64,000 nt of DNA from Arthrobacter sp. KBS0702 (GTDB taxonomy: Bacteria; Actinomycetota; Actinomycetes; Actinomycetales; Micrococcaceae). Where the stretch lies: positions 124,001 to 188,000 of the forward strand of contig NZ_CP042172.1 in NCBI RefSeq assembly GCF_005937985.2, read 5' to 3'. Shown here piece after piece: positions 43,380-56,144 of this stretch. The notes under the pieces were generated by a model that was not told where the DNA came from, made no database searches, and was given only the letters and a program-made list of their open reading frames with translations. Every line of letters starts with the position of its first letter. Position 1 is the first letter of the stretch. The translations under genes were made by a program, and so were the position numbers.

Positions 43380-44396
43380 CTAGAGCCTGGTGAGGGGCGA
43401 CAGGGCGAGTTCCAGCACAAAGGCGGCCGCCGCGGTCACCAGCGGGGTCAGGGCCCAGAAGGCCAGGACCTGTAGCACCAGCCGCCGGTCGGTCCCCGTA
43501 TAACGCTGGTTCGCGCCCGCCCCCAGCACGGCCGAAGTCACCGTGTGGGTGGTGGAAACCGGCCAGTGCAGTCCGATCGCGCCCACCAGCAGGATGACGC
43601 TGCTGTAGAGCTGGGCGACGAACCCGCGCAGCGGGTCAACCCTGACCAGCCGATAGCCGATCGTGTAGGAGATCCGCCAGCCGCCCGCGAGGGTGCCTGC
43701 GGTCAGCATCGCGGCGGTCAGGAGTGCCACCCACGCGGGCGTGGAGCCGCCGTCGGGCAGTCCCGCGGCCAGCATCGCCAGGATCAGCACGGCGCTCGTG
43801 CGCTGGCCGTCCTGCAGGCCGTGGCCGAAGGCCACCGCGCCAGCGGCGACGGCCTGTGCCCGCCGGGACCTGCTGTTCACCACGCTCGGCGGGGTGTAGC
43901 GGGCCGCCCAGGAAGCGGGCCAGACCAGCAGGTAGGCGCCCACAAAGGCGATGACCGGGGAGATCAGCAGGGGCAGCACCACTTGGAAGAGCAGCGACTG
44001 GTCCGCGCCCACCACCGAGTTTCCGCCCACCGCCACGCTGGCGACGCCGGCCCCGGCCAGGCCACCCACAAGCGCGTGGGTCGAGGAGGAGGGAATGCCG
44101 CGCCACCAGTTGTAGATGCCCCACAGGACCGCGCTGAGCAGCCCGGCAACAAGGATGGTGAGCCCGTTCGCCCCCGGCGGGAGGATGACCCAGGTCCGGC
44201 TGACCGCCAGCGCCAGCGCCGCGCTGAGGGCGGCGCCGACGAAGTTGAACAACCCGGCCAGCAGCACCGCGACCGTGGGGGTCAGGGCCCGGGTCCGGAC
44301 CGCGAGGGCAACCGAGGAGGAAACGTCCCGGAAACCGTTGAGGAAGGCGAACGCCCCGGCGAAGAGAACCACCAGGGCAAAGAGGGCGAGGGACAC
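43380..44396 (-). CDS. Inorganic phosphate transporter, PiT family
   Basis: The 338-residue polytopic protein is a low-affinity, ion-coupled phosphate importer. The PiT signatures FLNGFRDVSSSVALAV (near the N-terminus, GFxDxxN-like but with Ser in place of the usual Asn) and the second half GLHWPVSTTHTVTSAVLGAG and IPSSSTHALVGGLAGAG are present. GTG start, 1 nt after the stop of the DUF47 gene (TGAgGTG), so it is translationally coupled to it. It supplies a second phosphate route next to pst. Confidence 0.9.
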   Translation of the reverse strand: MSLALFALVVLFAGAFAFLNGFRDVSSSVALAVRTRALTPTVAVLLAGLFNFVGAALSAALALAVSRTWVILPPGANGLTILVAGLLSAVLWGIYNWWRGIPSSSTHALVGGLAGAGVASVAVGGNSVVGADQSLLFQVVLPLLISPVIAFVGAYLLVWPASWAARYTPPSVVNSRSRRAQAVAAGAVAFGHGLQDGQRTSAVLILAMLAAGLPDGGSTPAWVALLTAAMLTAGTLAGGWRISYTIGYRLVRVDPLRGFVAQLYSSVILLVGAIGLHWPVSTTHTVTSAVLGAGANQRYTGTDRRLVLQVLAFWALTPLVTAAAAFVLELALSPLTRL

Positions 44397-44397
44397 C

Positions 44398-45015
44398 TCA
44401 GGATTCCTTGACGATGATGCTGCCCACCTGCGTGGCGATCCGCCGCATGTCCTTGGTGACTTCCACGAGCTGGTCCGCGATGTCGCGGTTGCGGGCGTAC
44501 TGGGCCGACTTCATGTCCTTGAGCATGTCAGCCACCCAGACCCGGTGGGTGCGTTCCGCCCGCTTGGTGAGCCGGAGGACCTCGATCCAGTAATCCTCAA
44601 GGTCATCCAGATTGTTCAGCTGTCGCATGGCGTCGACCGTGAGTTCGGCCTGCCGGCTGATGATTTCCAGCTGGTCGGCCGCGCGTTTGGGCAGCCGCTC
44701 CAGCTTGTAGAGGAAAACGAGGTCCGCGGCGGCGTCCAGCTTTTCCATCGCCTCGTTGAGGTAGCGGGAAAGCGCGTACATGTCCTCGCGGGGGAGCGGG
44801 TTCAGGAAACTGGTGCGCATGTGTGTCAGGAGGGCAAAATGCAGTTCCGCGGACTTGGCTTCGTGGTCGTGCATGTCCTCCACGAGCCGCGAATGCTCGC
44901 TGGCGGGGGCGCCCAGGATCTCCGAAAGGGTTCCCGTGGCGAGGGCTATCTGGTGGGCCATCTGGGAGAGCAGGTTCAGCCCTGCGGGCTCCTGGGGAAA
45001 AAGGCGCAGCTTCAC
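44398..45015 (-). CDS. DUF47 / PhoU-like Pit accessory protein
   Basis: The 205-residue, all-helical cytoplasmic protein belongs to the DUF47 family that is encoded with PiT transporters and regulates them. Visible features are LVEDMHDHEAKSAELHFALLTHM and a second LDDLEDYWIEVLRLTKRAERTH pattern with conserved acidic residues that bind metal in PhoU-like bundles. GTG start at 45015. It precedes and is coupled with the PiT gene. A TAAAGT -10-like box lies about 85 nt upstream. Confidence 0.9.
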   Translation of the reverse strand: MKLRLFPQEPAGLNLLSQMAHQIALATGTLSEILGAPASEHSRLVEDMHDHEAKSAELHFALLTHMRTSFLNPLPREDMYALSRYLNEAMEKLDAAADLVFLYKLERLPKRAADQLEIISRQAELTVDAMRQLNNLDDLEDYWIEVLRLTKRAERTHRVWVADMLKDMKSAQYARNRDIADQLVEVTKDMRRIATQVGSIIVKES

Positions 45016-46333: not shown

Positions 46334-46375
46334 AAAAACCCCCGGCCTCCTGGCGACAGGAAGCCGGGGGTTTTT
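46334..46375 (+). terminator. Terminator after tRNA-Lys
   Basis: 19-nt arms (46334-46352 and 46357-46375) pair with a single mismatch around a 4-nt loop, ending in TTTTT on the plus strand and AAAAA on the other side. It can therefore stop transcription from both directions, including the operon converging from the right. Confidence 0.9.
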
Positions 46376-46402: not shown

Positions 46403-47257
46403 CTAATGTTCGACGGCCTTGGGGGTCTGCCCGTAGATGTCGGGACTGACCTCGTAGCCGTGGCGGTCCTGCGCCTTCGCCCGGTCGTTGACGCGGGCCA
46501 GGTCCCCCGCGTCCAGCTTGACCGTCTTGTCAAGGTTCAGGACTTCCTGGCTGTCCCCGCCGGAGGCGGTTACTTTGTAGCTTCCGACGCCGGAACGGTA
46601 GTACTTCTGCTGGTGGCCGGCAGCCGCGCCGTCGAGCGGGTTGAACTCGTCGATCTTCACCGTTGAACCTTTGCGCTCCACCACCTGCGCGCAATCGAGG
46701 AAGTCAATCGAGGGTGCCGACGCCTGCGTGTAGGCGTCCGTTCCTTCCCGGGGATGGGCCTGCATCGCGATGCCGCCGTGCGCGTCGTCCAGGCCCGAGA
46801 TGAAGGTGTTGGGGGCGCCGGTGAACTTGCCGGCGTCGAACTCCTCCGGATACTCACCGAGCAGCCAGACGTCGCCGTGCCGGTTCTGGGCGAAGAATGC
46901 CAGCTCCGACTCCGCGAGGACCCCGTCGGAGTAATCCCTGTCCCACAGGACCACGGTCCGCACGCCGTCGATCTTCTTGGTCAGCCCGGTCACGATGGAC
47001 ACCACGCGGTGTTCGTGGGTCTCCGGCGTTCCGGAGCTGAGGTCTGTGACGGTGCCGGAGAATTCGGACCTCGTACCCGGTTCCATGGGTAGCCATTTGT
47101 TGTCGATCTCGGGGTGCGAGGGAAAGTCCGCGGCCTTGACATCGGGCATCGAGCCCGGCCCGCAGTCGGCCGTTCCGGCCACGGCGGGGCTCCCGGTCAG
47201 AAACGACATCGGGAGGGCGATGAGGCACGCTAATGCGGCGCGTTGCTTACTAAACAT
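46403..47257 (-). CDS. Secreted protein of unknown function, last gene of the RND operon
   Basis: The 284-residue protein has a Sec signal peptide (hydrophobic about residues 7-27, likely cleaved near VAG-28). Mature segments such as WLPMEPGTRSEFSGTV, VVLWDRDYSDGVLAESELAFFAQN and GDVWLLGEYPEEFD suggest a beta-rich soluble domain. Two cysteines occur in the mature part. I do not recognise the family. The ATG at 47257 has GAGGA 9 nt upstream, and the gene begins 44 nt after the RND pump gene, so it is co-transcribed and may act with it extracellularly. Confidence 0.75.
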   Translation of the reverse strand: MFSKQRAALACLIALPMSFLTGSPAVAGTADCGPGSMPDVKAADFPSHPEIDNKWLPMEPGTRSEFSGTVTDLSSGTPETHEHRVVSIVTGLTKKIDGVRTVVLWDRDYSDGVLAESELAFFAQNRHGDVWLLGEYPEEFDAGKFTGAPNTFISGLDDAHGGIAMQAHPREGTDAYTQASAPSIDFLDCAQVVERKGSTVKIDEFNPLDGAAAGHQQKYYRSGVGSYKVTASGGDSQEVLNLDKTVKLDAGDLARVNDRAKAQDRHGYEVSPDIYGQTPKAVEH

Positions 47258-47301
47258 CGATCTGTCCTCTTCTTTGTGGGGAATCGCCGGGGGGTCGGGT
47301 A

Positions 47302-50300
47302 CTAAGCGGCGGCCTCTGGCATGGCGGCCAGACGTTCCTTCTTCGATTTGGCGAAACGGAGATAGAGCGACGGCACAATAAACAGGTTGAGCAGGGTTGA
47401 AGTGACCAGGCCGCCGAGGATGACGACGGCCATGGGGTGTTCGATTTCGTGGCCCGGAACGGCTCCCATCACCACGAGCGGCACCAGGGCCAGCCCGGTG
47501 GCCAGTGTGGTCATGAGGATGGGCGAGAGCCGTTCCCCGGCTCCGCGGAGCACAAGGGCACGGCCGAAAGCCTGGCCCTCGTTCTTTTCCAGGTGTTGGC
47601 AGTGGTTGATGAGCAGGATGCCGTTCCGCGCCGCGATCCCCATCACCGTCAGGAACCCGACCACCGATCCCAGCGACAGGACCCCGCCCGAGATGTAGGC
47701 GGCCATCACCCCGCCGACCAGGGCGATCGGCAGCGTCAACAGCGAGAGGAATGCCAGCCGCCAACTGCGGAAGGAGGTCTGCAGCAGCAGCAGGATCAGG
47801 GCAAGGGCCGCCAGCGCAAAGATCATGAGGCGGTTCGTCGCGGCCTCGCGCTCGGTGAACTCACCCAGCAACTGGACGCTGTAGCCGGGCGGCAGCTCCA
47901 GGGCGGCCAGCCGGTCCTGCAATTGGCCAACCACCACCCCCATGTCTGCGCCCTTGTCGAGGAACGATCCCACTTCCACCCGGCGGGATCCGTTGGTGCG
48001 GTCGATCTGGTTCGGCGTCGCCTGGAGTTTGACGGCTGCGACGTCGGCCAGCCGGACCCGCTGTCCGCCGGGGGTATCGATCGGCAGGTCCTCGATGCTG
48101 GTCACGCTGGAGCGGGTCGCCGGGGTGCTCCAGACCTGGACGTCGTAGGCCCGACCGTCCCGGAAGACGTCCCCGACCTCTTCGCCGGCCACCAGTGTCG
48201 CCGCTGCCCGCCGCACATCCCCGGGCTTGAGCCCGTACTTCTGCGCGGCGGCCAGATCCACCGTGACGGTAATCTGCGGGACCTCCACCTCGAGGGACAC
48301 GTGGGCTTCATCGGTGCCCGGAATGTCATCCAGGACCTTCTTGACCCGCTGCGCCTGTTCCCGCAGCACAGTGAGGTCGTCACCGAACACGCGGACCAGG
48401 ATCGGCTCGCTGGCCCCGGTCAGGACCTCCTCGATCCGCTCCTTCAGGTAGGTCTGGACGTCGCGGTGAAGCCCCGGGTAGCCGTCCACGACTTCCTGGA
48501 CGGCAGCCAGCGTCTCGTCGTAGTTGGCATGGCGGTCGATGCTGATCCAATGCTCGCCGGCGTTGACGCCCACGATCTCGTCGGCCGCGAACGCCTGCCC
48601 GATATGCGTGCCGCAGTTCAGGACGCCGGGCACTTTGAGGAACTCCGCACACCCGCGCTGCGAGATCCGGTATTCCTCCTCCGCCGACGTTCCCGGCTGC
48701 GAGATCCAGTGCATCAGGAAGTCCCGCTCCTTAAACGTCGGGAACAGCGACGAGCCCATCAGCGGGGTAATCGCCAAGCCCACGGCGGCGAGGGCGGCGA
48801 AGCCGGCATAGCCATAGCGGGGACGGTTCATGACCCGGGACAGCACGGCGTGGTAGCCGCGCTTCAACACCCGGACCAGCGGGGGGTCCCGCTCTTCCAA
48901 CTTTGCGTTCCCCAGCAGGATGAGGGCCAAAGCCGGCGTCACGGTCAGGGCCACCAGCATGGAGGCGAGGACGGCCAGGGTGTAGGTGATGGCCAGCGGC
49001 CGGAAGAAGACGCCGGTCAGCCCGTCCAGGAAGAAGATCGGCACGGCGGCGACCACAATGATCAGCGTCGCGTACACGATCGGACTTCGCATCTCGAGGG
49101 AAGCCTTCAGGACCACGGAAGCGGCCGACGCGTCGCTGCCCCGGGCGCGGTGCTGCCGCAGCCTGCGCATGATGTTTTCGACGTCGATGATCGCGTCGTC
49201 CACCACCACGCCGACGGCAATGACCAGCCCGGCCAGGACCATGGTGTTGATCGAACTGGCGGTGAAATAGAGGACCAGGGCCGCCGTGAGCAGCGAGAGC
49301 GGTATGGCAATCAGGCTGATCAGGGCGGTACGCCATTGGAAGAGGAAGGCGCCGAGAATCAGGACGACGAGCAGGCAGCCCAACAGCAGGGCGGTGCTGA
49401 GGTTGGAGATGGACTCCTCGACAAAGCTCGCCGGACGGAAGATGGTGGTGTCAAAGCTGATCCCGCTCATCCCGGGCTGGAGCTCCTTCAGGGCTTCCTC
49501 CACGCCCTTGGTCACGTCCAGGGTGTTGCCCCACGGCAGCTTCTCGACGATCAGCATGAGCCCGTGGCCGTTATTGATGACGGCATCCCCAATCAGCGGC
49601 TGGTGGTCCTCGACCACCTGGGCGACGTCGCCCAGATGCAGTGCCACACCGTCCTTCTCCCGGATGGTGACCTGGGCCAGGTCGGCAGGCGTCTGGATCG
49701 GCTGGACGTGGCGGACCCCCATTCTCTGGGTCGGGCTGTCGATGAAGCCGCCCGTACCGATGAACCGTCCCGGGGAATACTTCAGCAGCCCGGCGTCGAG
49801 GGCTCCTGCCGTGACCTCCATGACCTGGTTGAGTGAGACGTTTTGAGCCTTGAGCTTGTCCGGTTCCACCTGCACCTGCAGCATCTGGAGGCGTTCGCCC
49901 CAGATGGCTACATTGGCCACCCCCGGAACCCGGAGCAGCCGTGCCCGGATGGTCCAGTAGGACAGCATCGACATCTCGATCAGGGACCGGTCCGCGGAGG
50001 TCATGCCGATCTTCATCACCCGGCTCGTGGCAGACAGCGGCTGCAGCATCACCGGCGGGGCCGCCCAGGTGGGCAGCGCCGCCGTCACGGCAGCCATCCG
50101 CTCCGACACCAGCTGGCGGGCGTTGAGCAGTTCCGTTCCCTGGTGGAAGATCAGCACGATCGAGGACAGCTGCGGCACCGACTTGGACCGCAGCTCATCC
50201 AGGCCCGGCATGCCGCCCACCGCCGCCTCGATCGGGACGCTGACCAGCTGCTCGACTTCCTCCGCGGTCAATCCCAGGCAGGCGGTCTGGATTTCCACCC

Positions 50301-50433
50301 GGGGAGGGGCGAATTCGGGGAAGACATCCACTGATGCGGAGCCCAGCTGCAGCGAGCCGAGCAACATGACCGCGCAGGCCAAGGCCACGACGATGGTTCT
50401 GAACCTCAGGCTGATGCCGATGAGCCAGCGCAT
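47302..50433 (-). CDS. RND efflux pump, CusA/CzcA-like (pump 1)
   Basis: The 1043-residue inner-membrane protein has the full RND layout: a first helix, a large periplasm-type loop (about residues 35-330), six helices, a second loop and six helices. VDVFPEFAPPRVEIQT in the N-terminal region and VVVDDAIIDVENIMRR in TM4 (with the Asp-Asp pair of the proton relay) mark a metal/solute-efflux type. The ATG at 50433 lies 1 nt after the stop of the adaptor-like lipoprotein. Proton-driven export is inferred; the substrate is unknown. Confidence 0.9.
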   Translation of the reverse strand: MRWLIGISLRFRTIVVALACAVMLLGSLQLGSASVDVFPEFAPPRVEIQTACLGLTAEEVEQLVSVPIEAAVGGMPGLDELRSKSVPQLSSIVLIFHQGTELLNARQLVSERMAAVTAALPTWAAPPVMLQPLSATSRVMKIGMTSADRSLIEMSMLSYWTIRARLLRVPGVANVAIWGERLQMLQVQVEPDKLKAQNVSLNQVMEVTAGALDAGLLKYSPGRFIGTGGFIDSPTQRMGVRHVQPIQTPADLAQVTIREKDGVALHLGDVAQVVEDHQPLIGDAVINNGHGLMLIVEKLPWGNTLDVTKGVEEALKELQPGMSGISFDTTIFRPASFVEESISNLSTALLLGCLLVVLILGAFLFQWRTALISLIAIPLSLLTAALVLYFTASSINTMVLAGLVIAVGVVVDDAIIDVENIMRRLRQHRARGSDASAASVVLKASLEMRSPIVYATLIIVVAAVPIFFLDGLTGVFFRPLAITYTLAVLASMLVALTVTPALALILLGNAKLEERDPPLVRVLKRGYHAVLSRVMNRPRYGYAGFAALAAVGLAITPLMGSSLFPTFKERDFLMHWISQPGTSAEEEYRISQRGCAEFLKVPGVLNCGTHIGQAFAADEIVGVNAGEHWISIDRHANYDETLAAVQEVVDGYPGLHRDVQTYLKERIEEVLTGASEPILVRVFGDDLTVLREQAQRVKKVLDDIPGTDEAHVSLEVEVPQITVTVDLAAAQKYGLKPGDVRRAAATLVAGEEVGDVFRDGRAYDVQVWSTPATRSSVTSIEDLPIDTPGGQRVRLADVAAVKLQATPNQIDRTNGSRRVEVGSFLDKGADMGVVVGQLQDRLAALELPPGYSVQLLGEFTEREAATNRLMIFALAALALILLLLQTSFRSWRLAFLSLLTLPIALVGGVMAAYISGGVLSLGSVVGFLTVMGIAARNGILLINHCQHLEKNEGQAFGRALVLRGAGERLSPILMTTLATGLALVPLVVMGAVPGHEIEHPMAVVILGGLVTSTLLNLFIVPSLYLRFAKSKKERLAAMPEAAA

Positions 50434-50434
50434 G

Positions 50435-50890
50435 TCAGTGCGCCGTATCGAATTCTGCGCCGTACAGTTCCTCGGCTCCCGTGGTGACCACCACGGTGCC
50501 GGCGGCAGGACCGTCACTCAGCAGCGCGACGGCGCCGTTGATCCGCTCGACGGTGACGGCCTGGCGGACGTAGACCCGGGCCTCGGGGTTCGTGTAGACC
50601 CAGGTCTTGCCGGTGCTGTCGTACAGGATGGCCCAGTAGGAGACGCTCAGTTTCCCGGTCTGCGGATCCGTGGCTGTGGCATCCGTTTTGAGGCCGACCC
50701 GCTCGACGGCGCGCTCGGTCAGGGTGATGCGGTGCAGATCCGTTCCCGGAACCTCCGCGAGGACGGCGGGGTCGCCGTTGGCCGGGGCGGCCTCCTCGAT
50801 CTGGGCGCAGCCTGCGGCACCAAGGGCCAGGACGGCGGCAATGACCAGGCCGGCCAGCGTGCGGCGCCGTGGCGAAGGGATCGGGTTCAT
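50435..50890 (-). CDS. Mini periplasmic-adaptor-like lipoprotein of the RND operon
   Basis: The 151-residue protein has a signal peptide with lipobox-like AAGC (about residue 26). The mature part matches only the C-terminal end of RND membrane-fusion proteins (CusB/CzcB type): TWVYTNPEARVYVRQAVTVER and GPAAGTVVVTTGAEELYGAEF. The coiled-coil hairpin and lipoyl domains needed to reach an outer-membrane channel are absent. Its ATG overlaps the stop of pump 2 (ATGA) and its stop is 1 nt before pump 1, so the three are coupled. Confidence 0.8.
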   Translation of the reverse strand: MNPIPSPRRRTLAGLVIAAVLALGAAGCAQIEEAAPANGDPAVLAEVPGTDLHRITLTERAVERVGLKTDATATDPQTGKLSVSYWAILYDSTGKTWVYTNPEARVYVRQAVTVERINGAVALLSDGPAAGTVVVTTGAEELYGAEFDTAH

Positions 50891-53800
50891 GACGCATCCT
50901 GACTTTCGGTCCGGCCAAGGGAACCGCTGCCGGCGAGGGGGCTCAGTGCTTCTTTCGGCTGGAACCGGAGCAGGACGGCGGGCATAACGAACAGCATGAA
51001 GAGGGTCGTCGTCAGCAACCCGCCCCAGATGATCACGGCGAGCGGCAGGATGATCTCCGTGCCGGTCACACCGCCGAAGAAGACCAGCGGCAGCAGGACC
51101 ACGGCGGTCATCACGGACGTCATGAGGGTGGGTCCCAGCCGTTCCCGTGCGCCCCGAAGCACCAGATCCGGCCACGACGCCGTGCTGTCCTCGGCCCGCA
51201 GGCTCCGGACCAGGCCCAGCAGCAGCAAGGCGCCGCGGGCGGCGATGCCCAGGACGGCCGCGAAGGCGACAAGCGAAATCAGCGAATTGACGGAGCCTGT
51301 GGCCTGGGCGGCCAGCACTCCGCCGGACAGGGACAGGATCAGGCCCAGGAAGATCATGGCGGCGAGCTTCCAGCCTCCGGCTGCCGTCTGCAGCAGCACC
51401 AGCACGCCGGCCGCCGCAATGGCGGCCAGGAGCCACAGCCACTGATAGTTGCCCTGCAGCTGCGCGTACTGGGCCAGGACCTCGGCGTGGTAGGCGAGCG
51501 GGAACTGCATCTGCTGCAGGCTCTTGTTGACGTCCTGCTGCACATCGCTGACGGAACGGCCCTGGATGTCCGCCTTCACGTCGATGCGCCGTGAGGTGTC
51601 GTCATGCAGGATGGCGGCTTCATTGCCCACCATCGTGACTTGGGCAACGTCGCCGAGGCGGACGTGGCCGCCGTTGGGGGTGTCGATGATCAGGTCACGG
51701 ACGCTGTCGAGGCTGTTCCGCGTGGACGCCGCCCCCTTCACGATCACCGAGAAGACCTTCTGCTGCTCGTAGAGGTTTCCGACTTCGATGCCCTGCAGCA
51801 GCGCCGCTGCCGCGCGTCGGACATCGCCGGGAACGATGCTGGCTTTCTGCGCTGCGGCGAGGTCCACCTTGACCTCTGCGATCGGCTGTTCCACCGGGGC
51901 ATCCACGTGGGGGTTCACGACGCCCGCGGTGTGCTCCAGGATCCGTTGCACCTCTGCCGCCTTCTGCCGCAGGACCGCAGTGTCGAGGCCGTAGACCCGA
52001 ACCCCGAAGCCGCTGTCGCCGGCCTCGCGGATCTGGTCGATGCGCTCCTGCGGGTAGGTCGATACCTTGCTGGTCAGGCCGGGGTACCCGGCAACGACCT
52101 GCCCGATGGCGGCCGCAGTGTCGGCGTAGGACGCGTCCGGGGCAACGGTGACCCACAGCTCACCGGAACTGACGTCGCCGACCTGGTCCGAGGTGACCGC
52201 GCGGCCGACGTGTCCGCCCACGTTGGCGACCCCCGGGAGGGCGCGCAGTTCGCCGGCGGCGGCTTCCGTGATCCGGCTCATTTCCTGGTCCGAGGTTCCG
52301 GCCATCGCGCTCCAGTGCACGACGAGGGTCTTGTCGGCCAGGACGGGCACCACGGGACGTGACCCGGCCAGCTGGGGTGCCAGGGCAAGGCCGGCCAGCG
52401 CCACCACAGCGGCGGCGGCGAAGACCCACCGGCTCTTTGCGGTCACGCGGGACACGAGACCGTCGTAACCGCCCTCAAACCGGGCCAGGGCGCGGCGTTC
52501 CGGGCGGGGCGCGGACCCTGCGGGCAGGTAGTAGGCCAGCGCTGTCGTGACCGTGAGCGCCACGACCATGGCGATGACCAGGGCCAAGAGATAGTTCAGG
52601 ACAAGCGGGCCGAACAGCGCCCCGTTTTCGCCGGCCACAAAGAACGCCGGAATGACGGCCAGCGCCATGATCATCAGCGAGTAGAGCATCGGCGTGCGTA
52701 CCGACCGCATGGCCTCAGGGATCAGGGCTTCCCTCCACTCTCTGCCCCGGGGGCCGGGGCCGGCGGGAATCCTGTTGGCCCTGGCGAGGCCGTTGAGGTC
52801 CTCGGCGACGTCGCCCACGATGACGGCCAGGGCCAGGACCATCCCGGCGAGGACCATCGTGTTCATTCCGGCGCCGCGCACGTAGAGCAGCAGGGCAGCC
52901 GCGGACAGCGACACCGGAATGGTGATCAGGCTGATGACGGCGGTGCGCCACGAGCGGAAGAACGCACCGAAGATGGCCACGATCAGCACGAGGGTGATCA
53001 GCAGGGCGATGCCGAGGGTACCGACTTCCTCCTGGATGAAGGACGCCTGCCGGTAGACGGTGCTATCGATCTTGACGCCCGGCAAGCCGGGCTGGAGGGC
53101 TTTGAGGGCCTCATCGACGCCCTTCGTCACGGCCATCGTGTTGGTCTCGGGGAACTTCTCGATGACCAGCAGCAGCTCGGCTTCCTTGCTCAGGAGGGCA
53201 TCGCCGATCAGCGGCTGGTGGTCGGTTTCGACCGTGGCGACGTCCTTCAGGAGGAGCTTGCCGTTGGGCCCCTCGATGGGAATCTGGCCCAGGTCCTGGG
53301 GGGAGGCGATCGGCAGGACGTGCTGGACGCCGATCCGCTGGTGCCCGGTTTCGAAGAAGCCGCCCGTGCCGGGGGTGGAGGCCTCGAGGTAGCTCAGGGG
53401 CGATACCCAGACGGAATTGCCGGTGGTCTTGATGACTTCGTCCAGCGTCACACCCTTGGCTGCCAGCTGTGCCGGGTCAACCAGGACCTGCAGCTGCTGG
53501 TCGCGCTGGCCCCAGATGGCCACGTTGGCGACGCCGGGCACGGAAAGCAGCCCGGGCTTCATGGTCCAGCGGGCCAGCACCGACATGTCGATGGCCGACA
53601 TGTCGGTGGAGGTCAGCCGGATCATCATGACCCGGCTGGTCGATGAGAGCGGCTGCATGAGCACGGGTGCTGCCGACACGTTTGGAAGCGCGCGGGCCTG
53701 GGTCAGCCGCTCCGAGACCAGCTGGCGCGCGCGGAACAGGTCCGTGCCGGGCTTGAAGACCATCTGGATCGAGGACAGGCCCGGGACGGACTTGGAGCGG

Positions 53801-54048
53801 ATTGCCTCCACCCACGCCACGCCGTTGAGCAGGTCGGCCTCCATCGGCGAGGTGATCAGCTGTTCGACTTCCGCCGCCGACAGGCCGAGGGCCTCGGTCT
53901 GGATCTCCACCTGGGGCGGGGCGAATTCGGGGAATGCGTCCACTGCCATGCCCGGCAGGGTCGTGAGTCCAAAAGCGAGGATCCCGGCGGCCACGGCCAG
54001 CACCAGCAACCGGAACTGCAGAACCAGGCGCAGCATCGCGGCCATCAT
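50887..54048 (-). CDS. RND efflux pump-like protein (pump 2, degenerate proton-relay motif)
   Basis: The 1053-residue RND protein is paralogous to pump 1: VDAFPEFAPPQVEIQTEALGL aligns with the same N-terminal segment there, and both loops and 12 helices are present. In TM4 the motif reads VIVGDVAEDLNG, where pump 1 has VVVDDAIIDVEN, so one Asp is Gly and the Glu is Asn. This suggests it may not conduct protons alone and might pair with pump 1. The ATG at 54048 has GAGG upstream. It is the first gene of the operon. Confidence 0.88.
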   Translation of the reverse strand: MMAAMLRLVLQFRLLVLAVAAGILAFGLTTLPGMAVDAFPEFAPPQVEIQTEALGLSAAEVEQLITSPMEADLLNGVAWVEAIRSKSVPGLSSIQMVFKPGTDLFRARQLVSERLTQARALPNVSAAPVLMQPLSSTSRVMMIRLTSTDMSAIDMSVLARWTMKPGLLSVPGVANVAIWGQRDQQLQVLVDPAQLAAKGVTLDEVIKTTGNSVWVSPLSYLEASTPGTGGFFETGHQRIGVQHVLPIASPQDLGQIPIEGPNGKLLLKDVATVETDHQPLIGDALLSKEAELLLVIEKFPETNTMAVTKGVDEALKALQPGLPGVKIDSTVYRQASFIQEEVGTLGIALLITLVLIVAIFGAFFRSWRTAVISLITIPVSLSAAALLLYVRGAGMNTMVLAGMVLALAVIVGDVAEDLNGLARANRIPAGPGPRGREWREALIPEAMRSVRTPMLYSLMIMALAVIPAFFVAGENGALFGPLVLNYLLALVIAMVVALTVTTALAYYLPAGSAPRPERRALARFEGGYDGLVSRVTAKSRWVFAAAAVVALAGLALAPQLAGSRPVVPVLADKTLVVHWSAMAGTSDQEMSRITEAAAGELRALPGVANVGGHVGRAVTSDQVGDVSSGELWVTVAPDASYADTAAAIGQVVAGYPGLTSKVSTYPQERIDQIREAGDSGFGVRVYGLDTAVLRQKAAEVQRILEHTAGVVNPHVDAPVEQPIAEVKVDLAAAQKASIVPGDVRRAAAALLQGIEVGNLYEQQKVFSVIVKGAASTRNSLDSVRDLIIDTPNGGHVRLGDVAQVTMVGNEAAILHDDTSRRIDVKADIQGRSVSDVQQDVNKSLQQMQFPLAYHAEVLAQYAQLQGNYQWLWLLAAIAAAGVLVLLQTAAGGWKLAAMIFLGLILSLSGGVLAAQATGSVNSLISLVAFAAVLGIAARGALLLLGLVRSLRAEDSTASWPDLVLRGARERLGPTLMTSVMTAVVLLPLVFFGGVTGTEIILPLAVIIWGGLLTTTLFMLFVMPAVLLRFQPKEALSPLAGSGSLGRTESQDAS

Positions 54049-54307: not shown

Positions 54308-54811
54308 ATGAACTCCGACAGCGCCTCCAGCTCAGGGTACTGGTACGGTCCCGACGAGCGCCTAGATGCCCCGGCGGCCGTGCTGCACGCCTTGAGGAGC
54401 TACCGGGCCGCCGAGGTGGCCACCCGCCGTTCCACCCGGGACTCCATGGGCATGGGCGAGACGGACCTGCTGGCATTGCGGTACCTGCTGCGTGCCCAGG
54501 CCACGGGGGAGCGGGTCGGGCCGAAAGACCTCAGCCGCACCCTGGGCATCACCACGGCCTCCACCACCTCCCTGATTGACCGGCTCGTCGGGAGCGGCCA
54601 CGTCCGCCGCGAGCCGCACCCCACGGACCGGCGCTCCCTAGTGATCGTCCCGACCGCCGTCACCGACTCCGAGGTCCGCGCCACCCTTGGTGAAATGCAC
54701 CGCCGGATGCTGGCCGTTGCCGAGTTGTTGAGCGCCGAGGAAAGCCGCATCATCGTGGGCTTCCTCCGCCGCATGACCGAAGCCCTCGACGGGCAGTCGG
54801 AACACCCCTGA
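54308..54811 (+). CDS. MarR family transcriptional regulator
   Basis: The 167-residue protein has a winged helix-turn-helix (GPKDLSRTLGITTASTTSLIDRLVGSGHVRREPHPTDRRS, about residues 80-120) with the typical wing ending DRRSLVI, flanked by dimerisation helices. It is divergent from the RND operon, which it probably represses. Two candidate regulatory features lie between: the 10-bp inverted repeat and a TAGGAT -10 box that gives a leaderless transcript. The ligand is unknown. Confidence 0.9.
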   Translation: MNSDSASSSGYWYGPDERLDAPAAVLHALRSYRAAEVATRRSTRDSMGMGETDLLALRYLLRAQATGERVGPKDLSRTLGITTASTTSLIDRLVGSGHVRREPHPTDRRSLVIVPTAVTDSEVRATLGEMHRRMLAVAELLSAEESRIIVGFLRRMTEALDGQSEHP

Positions 54812-54921: not shown

Positions 54922-55224
54922 GTGACTGAGTTGTTGACGATCACCGGAACCCCGGGAGCCGGTGCGGCCCCCTTGGCTGCGCCCCGGTCACCCGCAGAGC
55001 CGGGCGCCGTCGCGCCCGCGCTGCCCCTGAATACGGCGAGCCCTGCGCCCAGCCATTGCGGTACGCCGATGGAGTGGACGGCGCCGGTGCGGGACGCCAT
55101 GTCCGTTTATTCGTTCGACGCCGGCAACGGCTCCGCCGACCTTCCGCCCGTGTGGCGCTGCTCCTGCGGATTCCAGCTCGATGGCATCGTCCATACCTCC
55201 AACGCGCTGCTCGCACTTTCGTGA
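54922..55224 (+). CDS. Small protein with a zinc-ribbon-like motif, coupled to a kinase
   Basis: The 100-residue protein has an Ala/Pro-rich N-terminal half and a C-terminal half with HCGTPMEW and WRCSCGFQLDG, where two Cys-x-Cys/Gly knuckles could hold zinc. GTG start at 54922 with GGAGGAG 5 nt upstream. Its TGA stop overlaps the kinase GTG start (GTGA at 55221-55224), so the two proteins are made together. It may be a partner or substrate of the kinase. Family not recognised. Confidence 0.7.
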   Translation: MTELLTITGTPGAGAAPLAAPRSPAEPGAVAPALPLNTASPAPSHCGTPMEWTAPVRDAMSVYSFDAGNGSADLPPVWRCSCGFQLDGIVHTSNALLALS

Positions 55225-56144
55225 GTGCGGCTCCAGCCGCGGCGGTGGCACTTCCCTCCGCCGTCCCGGCCGCCGCTGTCCCCGCCGCGGCCGGCCTCGA
55301 CGCCAAGATCCTGCCGCTGCCGGACGCCCCGGAGGGGCGTTTCCTGGTCCACGAACTCCTGGGCCGCGGCGCAACCGCCACCGTCTTCCGGGGCACTGAC
55401 CTTTCCAATGACCGCCCGGTAGCCATCAAGGTGGCCGAGGGGCCGGCCGAGAAGGACGCCAGCCGGATCCGTGCCGAGGCACGCATGCTCGCCTCGCTGG
55501 ACCACCCCGCCGTCGTCCGTTTCATCGCCGCGGGCACTGTCCCCGGCGGAGACCAGTGGGCGGGACGTCCGTTCCTGGTTGAAGAATTTGCCTACGGCGG
55601 AAGCCTGGCCGAGCGGATCCGCGGCGGCGCCTGCGCCCCGGAGGATGTCGCCGGCTGGGCTGCCGCCGCGCTGTCCGGGCTCGGGCACGTGCACGGCCGC
55701 GGGCTGGTCCACCGAGACATCAAGCCGGCGAACATCCTGCTCAGTGAGCTGCGGCGGTGCTCCGTGCGGCTCGCCGACTTCGGCATTGCCACGGCGGCCG
55801 GCGCGCAGCCGGAACCCGGCGATTCTTCGGGAACCGTGCACTACATGAGCCCGGAGCAGGCGGCCGGGCAGCCCGTCCTGGCTGCCAGCGACATCTACGC
55901 GCTGGGGCTGGTGCTGCTGGAGTGCCTCACCGGCGTGAAGGCCTATCCCGGGACGCCGGTCGAGTCGCTGGTGGCCCGCACGCTGCGGGGCCCTGCTATC
56001 CCAAGCGAACTCGGCACGGGCTGGGTGTCCCTGCTGACGGCCATGACCGCGATGGATCCCGCGGCCCGGCCCTCGGCTGCCGCGGCCGAGAAGCTGGCCA
56101 CCAAGCTTTCCCGGCCCGTCCCGCCGCTCCGGCTGGTCGGCTAG
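55221..56144 (+). CDS. Serine/threonine protein kinase
   Basis: The 307-residue soluble kinase has a low-complexity Ala/Pro N-terminus (about residues 1-35) and a complete Hanks-type domain: P-loop LGRGATATVF (about 47-56), Lys70 in VAIKVAEG, catalytic HRDIKPANILL, DFGIA and MSPEQAAG. There is no membrane helix or sensor domain, so it resembles the catalytic part of the kinase at 25557 (both have the motif YPGTP/YPGAP then SxVAR). The start is GTG at 55221, overlapping the upstream gene. Confidence 0.9.
   Translation: MSAAPAAAVALPSAVPAAAVPAAAGLDAKILPLPDAPEGRFLVHELLGRGATATVFRGTDLSNDRPVAIKVAEGPAEKDASRIRAEARMLASLDHPAVVRFIAAGTVPGGDQWAGRPFLVEEFAYGGSLAERIRGGACAPEDVAGWAAAALSGLGHVHGRGLVHRDIKPANILLSELRRCSVRLADFGIATAAGAQPEPGDSSGTVHYMSPEQAAGQPVLAASDIYALGLVLLECLTGVKAYPGTPVESLVARTLRGPAIPSELGTGWVSLLTAMTAMDPAARPSAAAAEKLATKLSRPVPPLRLVG

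Follow-up and report, generated by a model that had tools for sequence, protein, structure and literature searches.

RND (resistance–nodulation–division) pumps are taken to work by rotation, with three coupled subunits that have a motor apiece. What, then, would a pair of unequal RND permeases do side by side, in a host lineage that has no outer membrane? The question is raised by a locus of Arthrobacter sp. KBS0702 (assembly GCF_005937985.2, contig NZ_CP042172.1, positions 124,001–188,000 of the forward strand); this whole stretch of 64,000 nt is the window, in whose numbering the features are given. An earlier note on the window had described a four-gene operon encoding two RND pumps, a truncated adaptor and a secreted protein, and we agree on the genes, their order and both end points (46403 and 54048). 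A point that it did not raise is that the two pumps are unequal. Pump 1 has a complete proton relay, and that of pump 2 appears, from alignment, to be reduced or rewired. In the order of the minus strand, the genes are:

Pump 2: 50887–54048, minus strand; RND permease of 1053 residues whose proton relay is remodelled and whose membrane domain is relaxed
Mini adaptor: 50435–50890, minus strand; 151 residues, a lipobox plus the membrane-proximal domain of an RND membrane fusion protein (MFP)
Pump 1: 47302–50433, minus strand; RND permease of 1043 residues with a complete proton relay
Secreted protein: 46403–47257, minus strand; 284 residues with a signal-like N-terminus, without a Pfam match or a credible PDB match

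Both permeases match Pfam ACR_tran across their full length (pump 1, E ~8.5e-216 and 719 bits; pump 2, E 1.6e-151 and 507 bits), passing the curated cut-off of 28 bits. The tight joining of the first three genes was confirmed: in the window, pump 2 and the adaptor share a 4-nt ATGA overlap and a 1-nt gap separates the adaptor stop from the pump 1 start. With start codons chosen by script, the first junction recurs as a 4-nt overlap in 35/50 loci and the second as a 1-nt gap in 34/50. The secreted-protein gene lies 44 nt 3' of pump 1, and a purine-rich stretch precedes its ATG.

The two pumps and their proton relay

Relay residues were read from an alignment of the pumps with AcrB, CusA, MdtB and MdtC, and are given in AcrB numbering. 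From the protein sets we dropped L054 and L069 (duplicates of L015 and L016), the solo pump L008, and proteins under the length limits, which removed the incomplete pump 1 of L033 as well as the pumps of L060–L065. All seven relay residues (D407, D408, E414, N415, R for K940, N941 and R971) are kept in 52/52 pump 1 sequences and in 0/51 pump 2 sequences. Pump 2 of the window has G at the D407-equivalent position and has lost the equivalents of E414, N415 and N941; D408, R940 and R971 are kept. Of the 51 sequences, 35 have G at position 407, 13 have D, two T and one N; E414 is kept in three and N941 in 15. Substituting D407, D408, K940 or R971 in AcrB abolishes extrusion (PMC8277102; here and below, articles are cited for excerpts). 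In the alignment, CusA has an Asp at only one of positions 407 and 408, that of D407, which is the residue lost by pump 2 of the Arthrobacter group. Because D407, E414 and N941 are mostly lost while D408, R940 and R971 stay, we regard the relay of pump 2 as apparently reduced or rewired, not simply erased. A description of pump 2 as proton-dead was withdrawn on account of the same three retained residues.

The difference between the pumps extends to the membrane domain. Over 50 paired loci, mean column identity in the periplasmic part is 0.680 for pump 1 and 0.625 for pump 2, and in the membrane part 0.728 and 0.456, which gives pump 2 an excess loss in the membrane of 0.216 (95% interval 0.180–0.254). 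The excess is 0.227 in the 37 Arthrobacter-group loci and 0.154 in the 13 others. The PN1 and DN regions of pump 2 are conserved even above their pump 1 counterparts, and its DN hairpin is visible in the alignment. The ratio of non-synonymous to synonymous substitution rates (dN/dS), taken from eight comparisons of which three are among the same three sequences, is 0.10–0.15 overall for pump 2, lower in the periplasm (0.05–0.09) than in the membrane (0.15–0.27); pump 1 has no consistent split between the two. Judged by these regional identities and dN/dS values, pump 2 appears to be under selection, chiefly on its porter and docking parts.

Ten MdtB/MdtC-like pairs served as a control; in every pair E. 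coli MdtB is the nearer relative of the first gene and MdtC that of the second. The nine relay positions tested are kept in both subunits (10/10 and 10/10), and the membrane excess is 0.019 (−0.014 to 0.053), or 0.020 (−0.015 to 0.053) without the one Acidobacteriota pair. In both MdtBC-like subunits, as in pump 1, the membrane domain is more conserved than the periplasm. Because these pairs exhibit neither relay loss nor membrane excess, an unequal motor does not appear to be a general trait of two-permease systems.

The origin of the pair was approached with a tree of 110 permeases, built by a quick method and with long branches flagged. Pump 1 (52 sequences) and pump 2 (51 sequences) form separate clades with support values of 99 and 100, respectively, in the Shimodaira–Hasegawa-like approximate likelihood ratio test (SH-aLRT). 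The two clades are sisters (SH-aLRT 95), with the single permeases of Methylomonas and Hymenobacter just outside; MdtB and MdtC group outside with AcrB and have identities of 0.19–0.23 to the window pumps. Pump 1 of the window is 55% and 50% identical to the Methylomonas and Hymenobacter permeases, pump 2 is 42% and 40% identical to them, and the two pumps of one locus share 43% identity on average. Given this topology and these identities, the most likely source of the pair is a single old duplication of a permease that elsewhere acts without a partner. The five loci of Gram-negative plasmid relatives that we opened have one permease each; one Burkholderia record has a second match, which was not opened.

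The mini adaptor and the spread of the module

The earlier note had seen in the 151-residue adaptor a truncated, lipid-anchored protein without the hairpin, and this stands; the domain that it keeps, which had been called distal, is the membrane-proximal one. With starts chosen, 54/54 adaptors are 141–161 residues long. A Cys occupies the lipobox column in 53/54, with the strict pattern in 35 and none in L041. The adaptor profile aligns with residues 334–408 of the 409-residue Hymenobacter adaptor (hhalign probability 98.9) and with residues 228–313 of the 314-residue Methylomonas adaptor (98.6). Its first half aligns with residues 46–72 of the Hymenobacter adaptor and with the beginning of the Methylomonas adaptor, and these N-terminal strand matches (domain E 3.6e-6 and 4.5e-4) lie above all 1000 shuffles. 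The corresponding CusB match is not above 1000 shuffles, MdtA is not among the matches listed, and the C-terminal part of CusB (319–381) is matched weakly (hhalign 14). Residues 73–333 of the Hymenobacter homologue, which hold the barrel, lipoyl and hairpin domains, have no counterpart in the mini adaptor. Because an adaptor chain goes outwards and returns (PMC4338810), the two matched pieces would be two parts of the membrane-proximal domain, and the mini adaptor appears to consist of these two parts, the ∼260 residues between them being gone. A structure prediction from a shallow alignment of 12 sequences had a mean predicted local distance difference test score (pLDDT) of 37. One locus has the adaptor gene on both sides of pump 2, a second copy lying upstream (L025:12946-13428).

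The KBS0702 genome (3.65 Mb) has six ACR_tran matches, of which five are full-length genes and one is partial. Among these is a second pump pair (1.905–1.912 Mb); the same fourth gene follows it, which makes a complete second copy of the four-gene cluster. The mini adaptor has two matches in the genome and the secreted family also two (E up to 0.001), all of them within the two clusters. A solo RND permease of a different branch (L008; G000:C1:2290521-2293571) is unpaired and has T at the K940 position.

A pump 2 match was found in 52/150 genomes of the genus. For the count of pairs, pump 2 was separated from pump 1 by at least 51% identity to pump 2 of the window, and 13 short or split pieces in eight genomes were left out. 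Pump 1 lies 466–559 nt downstream, on the same strand, of 57 of the 58 full-length pump-2 genes; at the remaining one (G428) both contigs stop less than 600 nt from each pump. Six pump-1 rows have no full-length pump-2 row adjoining. Two of these genomes, G350 and G355, do carry a full-length pump 2 (L057 and L058) and G395 a split one (L059), the G428 row ends at contig edges, and G425 (L060) and G434 (L094) are decayed in both pumps: both are broken in L060, and in L094 pump 2 has a large internal gap and pump 1 lacks its start. L061, L062 and L063 hold pump-2 remnants with no pump-1 match.

In a draw across the phylum, 14/296 genomes matched (KBS0702 included), 12 with the pair on one contig and two cut by contig ends. 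The pump 1 query found a match in 6/394 genomes of the class, in 3/149 of the family, and in 4/39, 4/17 and 2/3 genomes of three further families, where weak single matches in G065 (31%) and G028 (26%) resemble other RND pumps. The order pump 2–adaptor–pump 1 was found in 11 families, ten besides that of the host; in a twelfth, L034 has pump 1 at a contig end. The two pumps with their truncated adaptor are thus kept as a unit, an old actinobacterial module in the order pump 2–mini adaptor–pump 1 that is sparse but widely spread across Actinomycetota. The second four-gene copy in the genome, together with the order in ten other families, places the arrangement beyond chance.

The fourth gene is less constant, and the full order of four genes is less general than its three-gene core. 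A member of the secreted family lies in the fetched stretch of 25/52 pump-1 loci (twice in L028 and L031, upstream in L050), and none was found in the fetched stretch of the other 27. Of 24 genomes picked because a cluster looked at lacks the gene, 19 have a family member elsewhere, in some cases next to a different copy of the cluster. The secreted protein is therefore an associated but optional part. The 30 members taken are 226–330 residues long, with a strict lipobox in 14, of which 12 are outside the genus. None of 20 relatives matched a Pfam family, none of the three members scanned had a credible NCBIfam match, and no credible PDB match was found for the family; a structure prediction from three sequences had a mean pLDDT of 34.

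Two further features flank the operon:

Terminator-like hairpin: 46334–46375, minus strand; CCCCCGGC ... GCCGGGGG then T5, 3' of the secreted-protein gene, read from the sequence
MarR-family regulator gene: 54308–54811, plus strand; divergent from pump 2, a candidate local regulator

A scoring scan of the hairpin region scored the inner stem on the plus strand, and promoter and terminator scans of the region gave consensus matches and nothing further. A MarR-family gene likewise lies upstream of pump 2 in L009. Beyond the hairpin and its T run is a tRNA-Lys gene on the opposite strand, and past this, at 43380–45015, are genes for a PHO4-type phosphate transporter and a PhoU-like protein (the latter under the Pfam cut-off), probably an ordinary phosphate uptake pair. 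On the other side, downstream of the MarR-family gene, the translation of an open reading frame at 55056–56144 resembles a Ser/Thr protein kinase and has the motif HRDIKPANIL, which we take to be a sign of such kinases.

A proposed mixed trimer and its alternatives

From the observed gene order, duplication tree, relay change, regional relaxation and adaptor anatomy we infer a mixed trimer, a division of labour within it and an action of the adaptor upon it. An ancestral single permease gene, of the kind that goes with TolC and a longer adaptor in those Gram-negative relatives that were opened, would have duplicated, and the adaptor would have been cut down to a lipid-anchored membrane-proximal domain, its barrel, lipoyl and hairpin parts being lost. 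The two pumps would then assemble as a mixed trimer. Pump 1, with its full proton relay, would drive the cycle; pump 2, its proton site reduced or relocated, would be moved by its neighbours and would give porter and docking surfaces, and perhaps substrate choice. The mini adaptor would sit at the membrane on the porter clefts and stimulate or stabilize them, having no outer-membrane channel to recruit, and the secreted protein would be an optional accessory outside the membrane. That pump 1 is the motor of such a trimer, pump 2 its porter and docking subunit with a reduced or relocated proton site, and the mini adaptor a protein acting on the porter clefts is the account towards which we lean, slightly. 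Stated as a mixed trimer in which one subunit type, its proton motor decayed in the course of the module's history, is driven by its neighbour, and the adaptor has been cut to a single pump-touching domain, the proposal seems quite possible, if a shade short of probable. A one-domain adaptor would be reasonable where there is no outer-membrane channel, because the C-terminal domains of adaptors are critical for transporter stimulation (PMC4338810) and membrane-proximal domains accompany transporters with large periplasmic domains (PMC4446572). Excerpted accounts of MdtB2C give a precedent for unequal subunit roles. The decay of both pumps together in L060 and L094 we count in favour of the mixed trimer.

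Several observations weigh against it. D408 is kept in 51/51 pump 2 sequences, and R940 and R971 in 50/51 each, so that pump 2 may still move protons. E411, one turn from position 407, is present in 29/35 of the pump 2 sequences with G407 and is a possible relocated proton site. D407 itself persists in 13 of the 51, and in pump 2 of L022 and L025, where E414 and N941 are also kept, only N415 differs among the seven residues. The first transmembrane helix (TM1, 19 columns) does not share the drop in conservation (0.515/0.523), the adaptor is under weaker constraint (dN/dS 0.10–0.47), and in L059 pump 2 is split into two frames beside an intact pump 1. The evolutionary distances of the two pumps are correlated (0.96), which speaks for co-inheritance; this is not equal to contact, and strong pairing also fits two homotrimers that share one adaptor.

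This last arrangement is the rival to be considered most closely. Pump 2 would be an independent homotrimer with a rewired one-aspartate relay (D408 and R940, sometimes E411) and a different substrate, sharing the adaptor. The retained relay residues and E411 just mentioned agree with it, as do a dN/dS of pump 2 well under 1 and the homotrimer that has been observed for E. coli MdtB, described there as inactive (PMC12802153). We nevertheless consider it unlikely: pump 2 is more relaxed in its membrane domain than in its periplasmic one, the reverse of pump 1 and of both MdtBC-like subunits, and a full-length pump 2 without pump 1 was not found in the genus search save at contig ends. An altered relay beside conserved periplasmic surfaces would also be expected of a non-transporting scaffold or inhibitor outside a pump-1 trimer, holding the adaptor or the secreted protein. 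A mere binding partner would presumably not need all of the porter and docking regions, including the DN hairpin, that pump 2 conserves, and this role strikes us as improbable.

We give least credence to an ordinary Cus/Czc-type heavy-metal exporter that happens to be duplicated, which seems very improbable even though the best PDB matches of the pumps are ZneA and CusA and the best NCBIfam model is TIGR00914 (CusA/CzcA). Among the Gram-negative relatives, one is near a MerR-type regulator and DUF411/DUF305 genes, and the adaptor of another is annotated 'metal transporter'. Against this, pump 1 reaches 580 bits and pump 2 381 bits with TIGR00914, where the cut-off is 701. The positions of the copper/silver methionines of CusA, which we take to be 573, 623 and 672, are H, A and E in pump 1 and H, S and Q in pump 2, so that the copper ligands are absent. 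No metal genes were recognized among the 20 flanking proteins (10 + 10) scanned at actinobacterial loci, the regulators there being of several kinds, and the duplication is old and asymmetric. On the TIGR00914 scores and the missing methionines, metal export was rated low. A paper on Arthrobacter sp. H-02-3, the strain of L018, has a CzcA homologue in a table (PMC6978705).

If the mixed trimer is right, a kind of subunit that lacks a full motor would make it possible to study the number of motors that a trimer requires and the transmission of force from one subunit to the next, and the functions of motor, porter and adaptor would be naturally separated in a cell that has no outer membrane. The mini adaptor is relevant to the role of adaptors in Gram-positive cells, which one review of 2015 calls a gap in knowledge (PMC4338810); according to another of that year, adaptors without hairpins were expected in Gram-positives, and this proved not to be the case (PMC4446572).

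Comparison with known systems

The earlier note knew of no standard arrangement of this kind. A survey of 920 Gram-negative proteomes, with Actinobacteria left out, counted 203 tandem permease repeats, every one of them within the MdtBC clade (HAE-1, hydrophobe/amphiphile efflux, clade B; PMC10872679). Our full-text search gave no tandem RND pair outside that clade among the matches listed, and titles and abstract openings among the matches listed mentioned no actinobacterial tandem RND pair, motor-poor RND subunit or membrane-proximal-only adaptor.

MdtABC and MuxABC resemble the module in having two adjacent homologous permeases, one old duplication and an adaptor in the operon. They belong to another RND branch, however, and differ in that both permeases keep the nine relay positions tested without excess membrane relaxation, and in that a full adaptor, mostly with an outer-membrane channel, comes first in the operon and not between the pumps. 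CusBA and ZneA, of the heavy-metal efflux (HME) group, are the nearest solved permeases, and CusB is matched weakly by the adaptor profile, but the window pumps fall below the HME cut-off and lack the copper ligands. BesA of Borrelia and the YknX-type adaptors of Gram-positives are alike in having reduced parts or in serving cells that have no outer-membrane channel. Of these, BesA is described as hairpin-less and the Gram-positive adaptors described keep their hairpins (PMC4446572), whereas the mini adaptor is the membrane-proximal domain only.

The closest homologues that we found outside Actinomycetota are the plasmid-borne TolC–MFP–RND operons of Methylomonas, Hymenobacter and Sphingomonas, to which pump 1 is ∼50–55% identical. 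The C-terminus of their adaptor is homologous to the mini adaptor and ends at the same place. Beside three of the five Gram-negative relatives opened (L036, L079 and L080) are genes for a PAP2 phosphatase, DedA or an undecaprenyl-diphosphate phosphatase, with two-component regulators; these lipid-phosphatase neighbours hint, as a lead only, at a lipid-linked or envelope substrate. The plasmid operons differ from the actinobacterial module in having a single permease, a longer adaptor (314 and 409 residues in the two read), TolC and two-component regulators.

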